From Acidimicrobiales bacterium (GTDB lineage Bacteria; Actinomycetota; Acidimicrobiia; Acidimicrobiales; SZUA-35): 32,491 bases of DNA. The position numbers and the translations under genes were made by a program. The notes below the pieces were generated by a model. The model saw only the letters and a list, made by a program, of their open reading frames with translations, was not told where the DNA came from and did no database searches. Positions 22,252 to 27,474 of the stretch are shown here, one piece after another (the first letter of the stretch is position 1; each line of letters starts with the position of its first letter). The stretch lies in contig JAHDFR010000046.1 of NCBI GenBank assembly GCA_020628065.1, forward strand, positions 1-32,491, read 5' to 3'.

Positions 22252-23900
22252 TCCCGGTCACCAGCGGCGACGGTAAGCAGCTTCTGTAGCTCCGTTCGCA
22301 CGTTGAGCTCCTCTTGCATTGGTTTGATGACCAGATCGTCCGTGATGTCCTGTACGGCTTGAGCGGCTGACGCACGAACGGTGGCCGCTCGACGCCGCGC
22401 CCCTACGGCGGCCAACCGTCGGGAGAACGCAGCCAGCACAAGACCGAGAACCAGTCCGCCGATGAGGAGCCCGGTGGGAATGGGCACCTGTGAGAGGAAA
22501 CCGACCGGGCCGAACAGGTCGTCGAACTCCGGGGTCGGGATGTCGGGGAGGCGTAGATACGCCCCGAAAGCCAGCAGCGCCAACCAGATGGCACCGGCTA
22601 TGGCCGAGACGGCCAATACGAGCTGCACGAGATTGACCAGCGTCCACCAACGAGGACTTCCGGAGTCGTGAATCCGTCTCACCGAACCACTGACGGCGTT
22701 GTCGATCTGATTGTTCAACGCCGCCTGGTTCGGCGTTCCGGCCTCCCGCACGACATCAACCCATTGTTCGGGTAGTTGATCGGTCACGGTTCCGACCGTC
22801 TGGCGGACGGCGTTTTCCGACCGGGCCAGCTGGACACCCGATATTTCCGGCAGCGAGGAACGGCCACCTGAACCCGGTCCGAGGTGCAAACGACCAAGTG
22901 GATGGGGACGAAGCCGTCTGACCCAGCGGGTGAACGGCCACCCCACTTTGGCTGCCGCGTCCCGGCGGTGCCCGGCGGCAACCGCGTCGGTCACAAATGA
23001 CAGCCCCGAGGCATCGACCAGCGCCGTGGCCAGGTCCTGGCCGACCTGCGGAGAGATGGCGACGTCACGGTTTTCGGTGCCGACCTCGGACAGCAGTTCG
23101 CTGGATACCGCTGTGCAGTCGGCTCCAAGCCGATCGGTCATGGCGGCCTTACGTTCGACCGCTTCAGCTAGAACTGCTCGGAGGTCGACTACGCCTTCAC
23201 CGCTGTTGGCTGACAGCTCGACGACCGGTGTGTCAGGCAGTCCGTCGGCGGCAAGTAGACGCCTGATGTCGGTGACGCATTGCTTGCGTTCGTCGTCGGT
23301 CAACATGTCGATCTTGTTCAACACCATCACGGTGACCGCCCCGTGACCGGACATCTCCCGCAGGTAGGTGTGCATGGCGTTATCGCCGTACTTCTCGGCG
23401 TCGGTTACCCATATCAGAAGATCGACGTGGCGGGCGATGCGTTCCATCTCGAGGCGATGGCTGACTTGGACCGAGTCGTGGTCGGGGACATCAAGCAGGA
23501 CCAGTCCGTCAAGCGGATCGAAGCCGGTCTCGTGATCGGTGTGGTGCTGGTCAACGTGATAGCGGTTTACGACCTCAAGCCAATCGAGAAGTTCGTGGGG
23601 CTCGTCATCGCCCCAGAAACAGGCCAGAGTGCTTGAGGTGGTCGGTCGGCGCACACCGGTGGTGGCGGCCTCAGTTCCGGCCAGAGCATTGGTCAACGAT
23701 GATTTGCCGCTGCCGGTGGCTCCTAGGAGGGCGGCGACGGTGTATGTGGTTCCGTGCCGCAGCCGTTCTCGTGCCTTGTCGACCAGGGCGCCGGCCGGAC
23801 CGGTTGTGTCCGGGTTGAGCCGATCTCCGGCCAGCTCCAGGGCAGAGTGCAGAGCTTCGATGCGCTGCGGAAGTTCAACCCTGTTGCGTCGCCGCAACAT
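22248..23900 (-). CDS. Dynamin-like / YfjP-type membrane GTPase B
   Basis: 550 residues. The N-terminal GTPase domain has G1 'GATGSGKSS' (60-68), a G2 Thr near 87-88, G3 'DVPDHDS' (137-143), G4 'NKID' (195-198) and a G5-like 'ELSANSGEG'. A helical middle region is followed by two membrane helices (about 423-447 and 474-493) and a short helical tail. This is the layout of the bacterial dynamin-related or YfjP-family GTPases found as adjacent pairs in actinobacteria. It starts with TGATG overlap (1 base) after GTPase A and ends with ATGA overlap into the SCP2 gene. All G motifs are intact, unlike GTPase A. Confidence 0.85.
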   Translation of the reverse strand: MLRRRNRVELPQRIEALHSALELAGDRLNPDTTGPAGALVDKARERLRHGTTYTVAALLGATGSGKSSLTNALAGTEAATTGVRRPTTSSTLACFWGDDEPHELLDWLEVVNRYHVDQHHTDHETGFDPLDGLVLLDVPDHDSVQVSHRLEMERIARHVDLLIWVTDAEKYGDNAMHTYLREMSGHGAVTVMVLNKIDMLTDDERKQCVTDIRRLLAADGLPDTPVVELSANSGEGVVDLRAVLAEAVERKAAMTDRLGADCTAVSSELLSEVGTENRDVAISPQVGQDLATALVDASGLSFVTDAVAAGHRRDAAAKVGWPFTRWVRRLRPHPLGRLHLGPGSGGRSSLPEISGVQLARSENAVRQTVGTVTDQLPEQWVDVVREAGTPNQAALNNQIDNAVSGSVRRIHDSGSPRWWTLVNLVQLVLAVSAIAGAIWLALLAFGAYLRLPDIPTPEFDDLFGPVGFLSQVPIPTGLLIGGLVLGLVLAAFSRRLAAVGARRRAATVRASAAQAVQDITDDLVIKPMQEELNVRTELQKLLTVAAGDRE

Positions 23901-25618
23901 CAGCGGACCTGCTCAAGGTCGGCCAGAGCCGCCTCAAGCTCGTGTACTGCTTCAGGCTCGCTGACGAGCCCGTCCAGCCGTTGGCGGAATCGGTCGGCGT
24001 CGGTCTGCAACAGATTATTCACCCGGTCTAGCAGCAGTTGGCGGGCATCGCTGGCCAGCTCACGCACTGCTTGTTCGCCGAACAGGGCGGTTAGCAACGT
24101 CTGTGAGACTCCGGCGGTTCCGGCCCCGATGGCCACCTCGCCACCTGTGAGGCCTCCGGTTTGGGCGAACAGCACGAGCATGAGAGCGATTCCAACGCTG
24201 TTGACCCCTAGGGCCAATATGCGGGCCGTGGTTCGTTTACCTTCACCTCGTTCGCTGACCAGGTTGAGGATGTCGCTCTGCCAACCTTCGACTTCAGCCC
24301 GAACTCGTTGTCTGTAGTCAGCCGACGCCTGTTCCAGGCTGCGGTCGTCCAGCAGCGCCTGCCGGCCACCGGGAAGGCCTTTCCAGGTTGTTACCGTCGA
24401 CGCCGCCGCCCGATCGGCGTGGTCGATCAACAACTGCTCGAGAGTCGAAGTGATCTCTCCCTGGACCTCTTGGGTCTGACCGGTTTGGCCTTTGGCGAAT
24501 GATGTCAGGCGGTCGCGGATCATTGAGATTCGACTTTGCACCGCTCGCATGAGTTCAGCCGTTCCGATGAGTTCCTGCCACCTCTCCAACACTTCGGAGC
24601 GAAGCATCGTTCCCGACCGGATGTCGGCGTCGAGGCGTTCGTAGGCCCCGGCGTACTGGTCTTCCATGGTGGCCCGAAGCTCGGTGACGGCGGCATTCTG
24701 CTGCTCGGCGGCGGCGATGACGTCTTTGGTTCGCTGAGGGATGCTTTCCATCGCCCCTTCGAGGGTTTGACGGACAACGTCTGCTCTGCGTTGCGCGTTG
24801 GTGGCCAGGTCGGTAAGCAACTCGCGGATGTGAGCTACGGCCGGCGGAGCCAAAAGCGTGGTGTCCACAGCCTGCTCCTCAACGGCGAACACCTGCACGT
24901 CGTTCAATCCGGCATCGATGAGCATTGACGTGAAGTGGCCGACGATCTCGTTGGTGGCCCCTGGAGGAATCCGGTTCACGATGCAGGCCAACGCCGTCCC
25001 TCGGTCCTTGGCCTGTTTCAGAAAGTCCCACGGAACAGCGTCGGCGTATCGGACGGCAGTGGTGGCGAACAGCCACAAATCGGCGGCGCTCAGTAGTTGA
25101 GCGGCCAACTCCCGGTTCGCTTCTTCCACAGAATCGATATCGGGAGCGTCGATGATGGCCAGTCCCGGTTTGAGCTCCTCTGTCGGGAGGACCCGCAGGA
25201 CCGTGCCGGTTGATGTGGCGCCCTGCGCTCCCGTGACACGCGCCAGTTCGGGGAGGACGTCGGGGCCGAGAAACCATGGTTCGTCGATCGGATTGCATAC
25301 CAGCAACGGTGCCCGTGTAGTGGGACGCAGAACGCCGGAGGGGGAGACTTCCTCACCCACAAGCGCGTTTGTGATGGTGGACTTACCCGAACCCGTCGAT
25401 CCGCCGAGAACAACAAGCAGTGGGGCGTCAAGGCGTTTGAATCGAGGAACCAGGTAGTCATCGATTTGATGGGCCAACTCATCTCGAGTTGACAGCGCGT
25501 CGGAGGCATCGCCGATCCGCAGTTCGAGCCCTGTTGAGCGCAGGGCTGATCCGAGCCGCTGGAGTGCCTCGATGGTCGGCATCGGACTCTTCATCTCATT
25601 AGAAGCGTAGCTGTTCAC
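23900..25618 (-). CDS. Dynamin-like membrane GTPase A (degenerate G4)
   Basis: 572 residues from GTG 25618; ATG 25594 or 25582 are possible alternative starts. G1 is 'GSTGSGKST' (73-81), G2 'RPTTRAP' near 98-104, and G3 'DAPDIDS' (157-163). G4 reads 'NRIP' (215-218) instead of N/TKxD, so guanine specificity may be weakened. A long helical region (about 275-455) follows, with a hydrophobic pair of helices at about 465-510 and a helical C-terminus. This resembles bacterial dynamin-like proteins, which remodel or stabilise membranes at division septa or under membrane stress. It leads a four-gene coupled operon; the paired arrangement suggests hetero-oligomers with GTPase B. Confidence 0.83.
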   Translation of the reverse strand: MNSYASNEMKSPMPTIEALQRLGSALRSTGLELRIGDASDALSTRDELAHQIDDYLVPRFKRLDAPLLVVLGGSTGSGKSTITNALVGEEVSPSGVLRPTTRAPLLVCNPIDEPWFLGPDVLPELARVTGAQGATSTGTVLRVLPTEELKPGLAIIDAPDIDSVEEANRELAAQLLSAADLWLFATTAVRYADAVPWDFLKQAKDRGTALACIVNRIPPGATNEIVGHFTSMLIDAGLNDVQVFAVEEQAVDTTLLAPPAVAHIRELLTDLATNAQRRADVVRQTLEGAMESIPQRTKDVIAAAEQQNAAVTELRATMEDQYAGAYERLDADIRSGTMLRSEVLERWQELIGTAELMRAVQSRISMIRDRLTSFAKGQTGQTQEVQGEITSTLEQLLIDHADRAAASTVTTWKGLPGGRQALLDDRSLEQASADYRQRVRAEVEGWQSDILNLVSERGEGKRTTARILALGVNSVGIALMLVLFAQTGGLTGGEVAIGAGTAGVSQTLLTALFGEQAVRELASDARQLLLDRVNNLLQTDADRFRQRLDGLVSEPEAVHELEAALADLEQVR

Positions 25619-25665
25619 TGTTTCCGAGGTGTAGATGGGGTTATGGCAGGTCGGTTTCTGATTGG

Positions 25666-25715
25666 CGACGACCAGCTAACATTGCGAAAAGGTTTACCGA
25701 CGTAGCTGGTTGTTG
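25666..25715. repeat. 13-bp inverted repeat, 24-base spacer
   Basis: CGACGACCAGCTA (25666-25678) pairs with TAGCTGGTTGTTG (25703-25715), 13 bp including two G-T wobbles; the inner eight bases ACCAGCTA/TAGCTGGT are perfect. It lies 48 bases upstream of the GTPase A start and could be an operator or a leader hairpin. Confidence 0.55.
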
Positions 25716-25825
25716 GTTCTCCCGATGCGGTATGGTGTTTTATTAGAGGCTCAAGCAATCACTTTGGTTGCAAAAAAGGATTGCAAAGATCTGATCGACT
25801 GAGGGTTGAAAAGTCGGTCCTGATC

Positions 25826-25869
25826 GCAGGTCGGCGGCTGTTCAGTCGCCCGGACGGCCGTCGACCTGC
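25826..25869. ncRNA. Stable 18-bp hairpin, candidate structured RNA or terminator
   Basis: GCAGGTCGGCGGCTGTTC (25826-25843) pairs with GGACGGCCGTCGACCTGC (25852-25869) with no mismatch (three G-T wobbles) and an 8-base loop. The right arm overlaps the start of the first 62-bp repeat. CCCGGACGGCC (25849-25859) can alternatively pair with GGCCGTCCGGG (25920-25930), so two exclusive folds are possible. Whether it is transcribed is unknown. Confidence 0.4.
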
Positions 25870-26026
25870 TCCGACCGCTTCAGTTTTGGAGTGGTTTGAG
25901 CCGTTTCCAGCCCCAAGATGGCCGTCCGGGTTCCCGGAAGCAACCCGCAGGGTTGCCGCCGTCAGACCTGCTCCGACCGCTTCAGTTTTGGAGTGGTTTG
26001 AGCCGTTTCCAGCCCCAAGATGGCCG
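25863..26026 (+). repeat. 62-bp direct repeat, two perfect copies, 102-bp offset
   Basis: Copy 1 is 25863-25924 and copy 2 is 25965-26026; both begin GACCTGCTCCGACC and end CCCCAAGATGGCCG. The flanking GCCGTC before each copy also matches apart from one inserted base. The offset is a multiple of three, so an open frame through both copies stays in phase. No transposase or terminal target duplication is visible. Confidence 0.9.
25940..25956. repeat. Short perfect hairpin between the two 62-bp repeats
   Basis: GCAACCC (25940-25946) and GGGTTGC (25950-25956) pair perfectly around a 3-base GCA loop. It sits in the 40-base spacer separating the direct repeats. Confidence 0.6.
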
Positions 26027-26069
26027 AGTCGTTTCCAGCCGCAGTAGGCGTCGGCGGTAGTCTGTTGCG

Positions 26070-26729
26070 GTGTCTGTTCCTGTGATCGAGGTTCATCGAA
26101 CGGTGCTGGACGGCGAACACGTGGTCGTCATCGCTCAGTTCGCGCTCTATCGCCATCGAGCTCAGGCAGGATTCTACGCCGTCGTGCAGGGCCGCTGTAC
26201 AGCTGGTCTGCCGACTGTCGTTGTCGCTGAAGATTTACCTATCGGCGATCGTTGGGAGTATCGGTCCTCCGGTTTGTGGGCAGAGCAGGTCCACGAGGCG
26301 CCAACAGACACTGACGCGCATTGGAGCTACGGTCTGGAAGCGTTCGCCATTCGCCTCGATGATCCGGCTGAGCTGCTCGGCCGCGGCTACGGCGACCGGT
26401 GCGCCCTCGGGTGGGAGCTCGACGTCTTTGTGCCCCTGGATTCCGGTGCCTCCCACACGGGTGATACCGGTTGCGCCAAGTCGGGTCGAGGCGAGGGGCT
26501 GCTGTTGTATGAGAACCTTGAGTTGGATATCAACGGTCCGGCCACTCGGTCAACCTGGACGCTTGACTCGGAACACGATATGGGGTCGGGGCTGTTACGT
26601 ACCGAAGTAGGCGGATTAGCAAAAAACGAAACCGGCCGGCGCCCCGAGGGGCTGCCGGCCAGTGTGATCATCCCAACGTTGTTGGGGGAGTGGGTTGTCG
26701 CTATCGCTGACCGGCCAGCCTTCGGTTGA
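26070..26729 (+). CDS. Protein of unknown function
   Basis: A 219-residue soluble protein from GTG 26070. I do not recognise the family. It is rich in charged and aromatic residues, for example '[14 protein letters not shown]', '[38 protein letters not shown]', and looks like a real coding sequence by composition; no signal peptide or membrane helix is visible. A TAGTCT six bases before the GTG could be a -10 box for a leaderless transcript. Its last 37 or so codons cover the intrinsic terminator of the convergent sdh operon (26621-26660), and it overlaps the sdhB 3' end by 29 bases. The natural stop may have been lost during evolution, giving a terminator-encoded tail. Confidence 0.6.
26621..26660 (-). 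terminator. Rho-independent terminator of the sdh operon
   Basis: On the minus strand, GGCCGGC (26660-26654) and its partner GCCGGCC (26640-26634), extended inward by GCCC/GGGC with one bulge, form a GC-rich hairpin of about 11 bp. It is followed by a T-rich tract containing T6 at 26626-26621. It begins 40 bases after the sdhB stop codon. It is the only textbook hairpin-plus-T-tract terminator I see in the window. Confidence 0.85.
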
Positions 26730-27474
26730 CCACCTTTGACTTGATGTAGTCCCGGTTCATGTAAGCGATGAAGTCCTGGCTGATCTCCTTGGGGCAGGCC
26801 TCGGAGCACTCACCGTGGTTGGTGCAGGAGCCGAAGAACTCTTCCATCGTCTCCACCATCGCTTCGGTCCGGCGGTAGCGCTCAGCCTGCCCCTGGGGGA
26901 GAGAGTTGAGATGCCAGATCTTGGCTGAGGTGAACAGCTGAGCAGCCGAGTTCGGGCAGGCGGCCACACAGGCGGCACAGCCGATGCAGGCGGCGGCGTC
27001 CATGGCCGAGTCCGCCACCTCTTTGGGGATGGGAATCTCGTTGGCGTCCGGTGCTGTGCCGGTCGGAGCGCTGATATAGCCCCCGGCCTCCACGATCTTG
27101 TCCAACGGAGATCGATCCACTACCAGATCACGAACGATGGGGAAGGCTGCTGCTCTCCACGGTTCGATGACGATGGTGTCCCCATCGTTGAACTTCCGCA
27201 TGTGGAGCTGGCAGGTGGCGGTGCCTTTTTCCTGGCCGTGGGCACGACCGTTGATCATCACACCACAGGTGCCGCAGATTCCTTCCCGGCAGTCATGAGG
27301 AAACTCGATCGGGGTGTGCCCTTCGGCGATAAGGCCTTCGTTGACGATGTCCAGCATCTCCAGGAAAGAGGCGTCGTCGGGGATTTCGTTGGCTTTGTAG
27401 ACCTCGAAGTGGCCGTTGGCCGCCGGGCCTTCCTGGCGCCAGACTTTCAGGGTTAGGTTCAGTCGGCGACTCAC
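26701..27474 (-). CDS. sdhB: Succinate dehydrogenase iron-sulphur subunit
   Basis: 257 residues with three cluster motifs: the [2Fe-2S] ligands Cys62, Cys67, Cys70 ('[10 protein letters not shown]') and Cys88; the [4Fe-4S] ligands Cys163, Cys166, Cys169 ('[12 protein letters not shown]') and Cys227; and the [3Fe-4S] ligands Cys173, Cys217 and Cys223 ('[14 protein letters not shown]'). It passes electrons from SdhA flavin to the quinone site at SdhC. GTG 27474 overlaps the sdhA stop by one base (TAGTG). Last gene of the sdhCAB operon, followed by the terminator at 26621-26660. Confidence 0.95.

Follow-up and report, generated by a model that had tools for sequence, protein, structure and literature searches.

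What occupies the bases between a GTPase gene and its divergent neighbour, here called q, a region with no evident gene of its own and a striking density of repeats and potential hairpins? The window, by which we mean the whole stretch of 32,491 nucleotides that was analysed, is one of the 432 contigs of a draft genome of 5.43 Mb (G000). An initial annotation of positions 25619–26069 listed a 13-bp inverted repeat, an 18-bp hairpin, a 62-bp direct repeat, a 7-bp hairpin and an alternative pairing, all of which are present, and offered a regulatory RNA, an attenuator or a REP-like element as explanations. The features of the locus are as follows.

23900–25618, − strand: dynamin-family GTPase gene (Pfam PF00350), divergent neighbour, its frame starting at 25618
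25666–25678 and 25703–25715, no strand applicable: 13-bp inverted repeat with two G-U pairs
25781–26047, + strand: mechanically derived frame of 88 amino acids with a TTG start, not conserved
25793–25800 and 25812–25819, + strand: P1 helix, GATCGACT with AGTCGGTC, variable loop, moderate support
25826–25869, + strand: P2 hairpin, 18 pairs between the arms 25826–25843 and 25852–25869
25844–25851, + strand: loop of P2, AGTCGCCC, identical in all 15 rows of alignment A4 (below) and in both hairpins of genus g4
25863–25924, + strand: first copy of the 62-bp direct repeat, starting within the 3' arm of P2
25938–25957, − strand: REP-like palindrome GGCAACCCTGCGGGTTGCTT between the repeat copies, the 7-bp hairpin of the initial annotation
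25965–26026, + strand: second, perfect copy of the 62-bp repeat at an offset of 102, with a second 3' arm
26058–26063, + strand: TAGTCT, 6 bases 5' of the q GTG, a possible −10 box for a leaderless q transcript
26070–26729, + strand: gene q, 219 amino acids, GTG start at 26070
26701–27474, − strand: iron-sulfur protein gene (Pfam PF13085 and PF13183), convergent neighbour, which from its domain set we take to be succinate dehydrogenase B-like

A hairpin with an invariant loop, kept by selection on + strand pairing

The RNA fold of either strand of the region beats 100 of 100 shuffles, with z values of −4.66 for the + strand and −2.76 for the − strand. When the region was compared with 60 relatives by BLAST, 15 gave matches (16 of 61 genomes when G000 is included); in 12 of the 15 the match spans all or part of 25787–25884, and in the other three it is solely a 23-nt palindrome. 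A structure-scoring model of 13 sequences (R1) was used on the 39 genomes of the family, and two copies that it found, one from G017 and the other from bin G002 (the second copy of that bin), were added by MAFFT alignment on sequence, the result being alignment A4 and model R2, which hold 15 copies from 14 genomes. R2 scores the window's hairpin, one of its own rows, at 77.8 bits.

In A4, 98.1% of the 270 stem cells are paired, 9 of the 18 pairs have changed on both sides and none of 500 shuffles attains any of the five measures used; when the alignment is slid by one to three columns, pairing falls to 31–51%. Much of the double change stems from the two added copies: the first 13 sequences alone show it in 3 of 18 pairs, a count matched by 212 of 500 shuffles, and their paired percentage and covariation score are matched by none of 500. 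The stem cells of A4 that are not Watson-Crick comprise 47 G-U pairs and five mismatches (three G-G, one T-T and one C-C), with no A-C. Read from the opposite strand, each G-U pair would be an A-C mismatch; selection therefore acts on the + strand as RNA. This pattern of substitution shows that selection on + strand pairing has maintained a long hairpin whose exposed 8-nt loop does not vary, and 25826–25869 almost certainly specifies a real conserved RNA. The initial annotation had named, as the outcome that would speak against it, an untranscribed region with neither conserved structure nor other copies; covariance modelling across relatives finds the hairpin structure conserved and other copies in existence. 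Its proposal of a regulatory RNA holds for the hairpin at 25826–25869 only, where structure, covariation, the invariant loop and the strand-specific G-U pairs support the RNA, which presumably regulates.

The variation across the hairpin follows the pairing, and from a reading of the alignments the region was judged non-coding. The 88-amino acid frame was rejected as a kept peptide because the P1-to-hairpin spacings of the nine g1 copies with P1 (g1 includes G000) differ by numbers that are not multiples of three. A conserved peptide read from the q frame was likewise rejected: in several genomes this frame runs through the hairpin without a stop, yet which frame is read varies from genome to genome. 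The P1 sequence is retained 5' of P2 in 9 of the 11 copies that g1 has at the q locus, including the window's; its pairing as a stem is not clearly above shuffles and is less well supported than that of P2. P1 was rejected for genomes without the g1 sequence, in which such stems are mostly no better than shuffles (of 200 shuffles, the observed stem is reached by 1 in G001, 17 in G010, 22 in G013, 89 in G017 and 124 in G023).

The Rfam models gave three sub-threshold matches in 25400–26300 up to an E value of 5, the best at 17.6 bits against a cut-off of 80, and all three are spurious. Among the papers listed in a search of the open-access literature, none deals with the P2 motif. The P2 hairpin is a new structured RNA family, in a class, the Acidimicrobiia, whose small RNAs seem little studied.

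The young repeats around the hairpin

The exact 62-bp repeat is beyond chance. As a functional unit it was rejected, being found as such in the window only; G007 has an exact 24-nt counterpart at an offset of 81, and exact repeats close to the hairpin reach at most 11 in the 13 remaining copies tested. Copies of the repeat region elsewhere in its own genome, which the initial annotation thought worth seeking, did not appear, BLAST of G000 returning solely the locus itself. The repeat is best described, from these comparisons, as a recent local partial tandem duplication of the 3' arm of P2. The two offsets, 102 and 81, are 21 bases apart, which is about the length of the REP-like palindrome; of the two units, only the window's contains that palindrome. 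A 13-base pairing between the duplicated 3' arm and the 5' arm is available in G007; a comparable pairing in the window, read by eye from the sequence, would be 7 + 6 with a bulged base. The 13-bp inverted repeat was rejected as a conserved element, the best pairing left in G007, the closest relative, being 7.

The palindrome GGCAACCCTGCGGGTTGC of the window's unit recurs as GGCAACCCTNCGGGTTGC on contig C197 of G000. At up to one mismatch there are five copies in G000 (one here and four on C197), and the palindrome occurs in 11 of the 39 family genomes; a reversed-pattern control gave 0 in all genomes. Positions 25938–25957 thus hold a dispersed REP-like palindrome, similar in its dispersal to REP and other short palindromic repeats. 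The conserved P2 hairpin differs from these in having been found once in G000 and is distinct from the palindrome, so that the term REP-like, as first proposed for the locus, is right for the 7-bp hairpin and wrong for the main one, which has a single place in the genome. The conspicuous structure of the locus is, on this evidence, a young duplication plus a REP-like insertion atop an older RNA: the perfect repeat draws the eye to the youngest part, and the likely functional part is the hairpin that the repeat copied.

We note some further features of the palindrome. GGCAACCCTNCGGGTTGC, noted in the window, L113 at 890–1290, L114 and L115, is in several places followed by a second small hairpin of the type TTCGAGTT...GGCGAA. 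The copies on C197 are clustered and lie immediately before a GTPase gene, presumably LepA-like to judge from its sequence. G013 (L115) has four 18-bp copies head-to-tail. In G035 (L015, near 1501) a copy lies at the break-off point of a frame which, named by eye from its motifs, we take to be an integrase-type transposase.

That the whole 450 bp forms one attenuator with two exclusive folds is hardly credible. The alternative pairing is real in the window, where 25849–25862 and 25917–25930 are 93% complementary and form 14 uninterrupted pairs counting G-U; it extends over at least 9 bases in only 3 of the 15 copies (14 in the window, 10 in G004 and 9 in G007), the surrounding repeats are local, and 25560–26110 holds no terminator-like site. 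Nor was a promoter recognised upstream of the hairpin, and no T-run follows the window's stem.

Occurrence at the q locus and away from it

The exact pattern of the element matched 14 stretches in the contig collection, 13 of them in metagenome-assembled genomes titled Acidimicrobiales, Acidimicrobiia, Acidimicrobiaceae or, once, "uncultured actinobacterium", and one in Methylobacterium. The last (L098) was rejected as a chance match inside a coding frame, presumably that of an alanyl-tRNA synthetase. Viral contigs gave no exact-pattern match. The R2 search found strong matches (57–78 bits) in 14 of the 39 family genomes, namely 11 of 12 in genus g1, both genomes of g3 and the single genome of g7, and in 13 of the 14 the strong match is at one place. 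The g1 exception, G009, has no match for the GTPase, q or iron-sulfur gene either, so its locus is probably unassembled. Searches of 397 genomes of the order and 395 of the class, in which filters are stricter because of the size, gave no further strong match.

Each of the 14 loci found in genera g1, g3 and g7 has the hairpin directly 5' of q and on the same strand. The divergent GTPase gene adjoins it in 13; in G017 the GTPase gene is on another contig, and RNA, q and iron-sulfur gene are still together. Sixteen q loci were read in sibling genera, and none of them has the loop AGTCGCCC in the 420 bases 5' of the q match. In eight of these (G030, G012, G024, G014, G018, G061, G019 and G026, from five genera) the GTPase gene is divergent right beside q, as in the window.

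Both g4 genomes contain a hairpin with the same loop, AGTCGCCC, on a related stem, GGYCGGYGG...CCGCCGGCC, and in both it follows a PfkB-family gene and stands ahead of a convergent EAL-domain gene; in G024 a T-rich tail follows. The same-loop hairpin is absent from the g4 genomes' own q loci. With 13–14 pairs and weak R2 matches (28–30 bits), the g4 hairpins are shorter and weaker, and they could therefore have converged on this form. In bin G002 the second copy comes after a DUF397 gene, and an alpha/beta hydrolase gene is found about 760 bases downstream; the frame between copy and hydrolase gene has no Pfam match. This bin has a listed contamination of 8%. The tetranucleotide composition of the second-copy contig correlates with that of the bin's q contig at r 0.92, and since several other g1 genomes reach 0.85–0.94, composition identifies the second copy's owner as a relative of g1, no more. 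An RNA confined to the q locus was rejected on account of the same-loop hairpins among the weak family matches in g4, and because hairpins occur away from q in g4 and bin G002, service as a leader of q is unlikely to be the whole story.

Most of the other weak matches (L048, L049, L050, L052, L053, L054, L055 and L056, and L118, L119, L033, L034, L044 and L047) lack the loop. L051 (G248) has it and was rejected, as it lies inside long frames and its stem is poor beside the loop. In G004, L046 (contig C223, about 1515–1558, − strand) has the same loop on a 10-pair stem inside a possible gene frame, and may be a member or a chance occurrence. The same choice applies to L120/L123 in G060, from another family of the order, in which a hairpin of 11 pairs with the AGTCGCCC loop lies in an apparently convergent intergenic gap. 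A survey of the loop against ten control octamers gave a biased contrast, as the DNA surveyed was mostly chosen because it matched.

Two explanations need no regulatory RNA. A DNA-level element, that is, a cruciform or single-strand hairpin serving as the site of a DNA-binding protein or mobile element, would suit locations that differ between genera and the second copy in bin G002. We consider it improbable, since the 47 G-U pairs and lack of A-C indicate a constraint on one strand, a strong match is found at one place per genome in 13 of 14, and no viral contig matches the exact pattern. Somewhat less improbable, and still unlikely, is a specialised terminator or a processing hairpin bound by a nuclease or RNA-binding protein, with no regulatory role of its own. 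The GC-rich stem, the T-rich tails of some members and the position between convergent genes in g4 agree with such a role; the 15 identical loops on a covarying stem do not, as ordinary terminators are not known to keep one loop sequence. Moreover, the window region has no terminator-like site and the upstream neighbour is divergent at 13 of 14 q loci, which also argues against it.

Among known systems, the 6C RNA (Rfam RF01066) and the mycobacterial sRNA B11 are similar in that they too come from actinobacteria, form stable hairpins and expose a loop bearing C. The 6C RNA has two hairpins whose loops carry runs of about six C, whereas here there is one main hairpin and its loop, AGTCGCCC, has three C in a row; the 6C model gave no match in 25400–26300 up to an E value of 5. 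The locus also resembles the orphan RNA motifs of comparative genomics, such as those in PMC2864571 and PMC6429828, in having a conserved, covarying intergenic structure with no assigned function. It differs from them in that same-loop hairpins occur at two or more unrelated loci of a single family, so that the P2 motif would not mark one gene.

Gene q and the possible action of the RNA

The q product has no Pfam or NCBIfam match, and among 14 aligned q orthologues there is no credible Pfam match (best E 0.049). The q family evolves fast, with a conserved stretch WSYGLEAF; the relatives' products are 32–61% identical to the window's, whereas the hairpin loop is invariant. The AlphaFold2 model of q is beta-rich (mean pLDDT 82.2), and its best Foldseek match is 25-phosphosteroid lyase (E 9e-4, TM 0.46 by query, 16% identity), with weaker matches to kievitone hydratase and Diels-Alderase-like enzymes. 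That the modelled protein binds lipids or isoprenoids would be a guess.

A TANNNT box 6–8 bases before the start is described in PMC3160421 as a signature of leaderless genes in Actinobacteria. Such a box precedes an in-frame start at 10 of the 16 RNA-free q loci and at 3 of the 14 RNA-bearing ones (G000, G007 and G004), a contrast with a Fisher p of 0.03 that is uncorrected for relatedness; control spacings yield 0–2 in either set. The difference suggests that q's own leaderless promoter is often lost where the RNA is present, and that q is possibly reached by read-through. We give the contrast moderate weight because the genomes are related and their start codons uncertain. There is no sign of a conserved promoter 5' of the hairpin, where 25 forward sites were found against 30.6 expected in shuffles, hence no excess over shuffles, and 15 on the reverse strand.

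These observations bear on whether the hairpin acts in cis, in the 5' untranslated region of the q mRNA, where a protein or ligand would set q expression. This is possible and we think it rather unlikely. It agrees with the position of the hairpin, directly 5' of q on q's strand at all 14 loci in g1, g3 and g7, with the retention of RNA, q and iron-sulfur gene in G017, where the GTPase gene is on another contig, with the −10 box contrast, and with G013, in which only about 18 bases separate the stem from the assumed q start, with no visible room for a promoter. Against it are the g4 hairpins and the second copy in bin G002, which have the loop but no neighbouring q, a distance from stem to assumed q start that ranges from 18 to 198, and the −10-like box right before q in the window's own genome. 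There is also no conserved second fold and no conserved complement of the loop near the start: masking of the start codon gave no fold common to the genomes, and pairing of the loop with nearby stretches gave best runs of 4–7 at scattered places. Of an attenuator or riboswitch one would expect the same downstream gene in every member; here q follows at 14 loci, and neither the two g4 loci nor the second copy in bin G002 have it.

We favour, tentatively and with somewhat less than even confidence, a free-standing small RNA that acts through its loop over a leader of q. A small structured RNA, free-standing itself or the stable 3' end of a free-standing one, would be made from the + strand at about 25790–25872, and the hairpin would protect or end the transcript. 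The exposed loop, AGUCGCCC in the RNA, would do the work, either by pairing with GGGCGACU-like segments of target RNAs or as the binding site of a protein, and the site beside q in three genera would be a common inherited location, perhaps with read-through into q. This reading is consistent with the covarying stem and invariant loop, the one-strand G-U pairs and the same-loop hairpins away from q; with the leaderless-type −10 box that stands between the hairpin and a possible q start in G000, G007 and G004; and with the T-rich tail after the stem in G024, G010, G006, G001 and G017. Weighing against a free-standing small RNA, all 14 loci in g1, g3 and g7 precede q in its direction, which fits a leader equally, the window has no recognisable upstream promoter and no T-run, the g4 hairpins are possibly convergent, and bin G002 is listed with 8% contamination. 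A bolder version, which we regard as doubtful, is a relocating small-RNA gene: one family would keep a regulatory RNA at different sites in different genera, its loop controlling many mRNAs that carry GGGCGACU-like stretches, and if so all but the fold and the 8-nt loop would be free to change. The clean structural signature and invariant loop make the hairpin a direct target for experimental and genomic work.

Two minor observations concern the start of q. In G003 and G008 (L022 and L025) the likely q GTG lies in the loop of a strong hairpin. In G004 (L023) a 10-bp exact partner of the loop-side 3' arm of P2, GATGTCCGGG, lies downstream near the q start.
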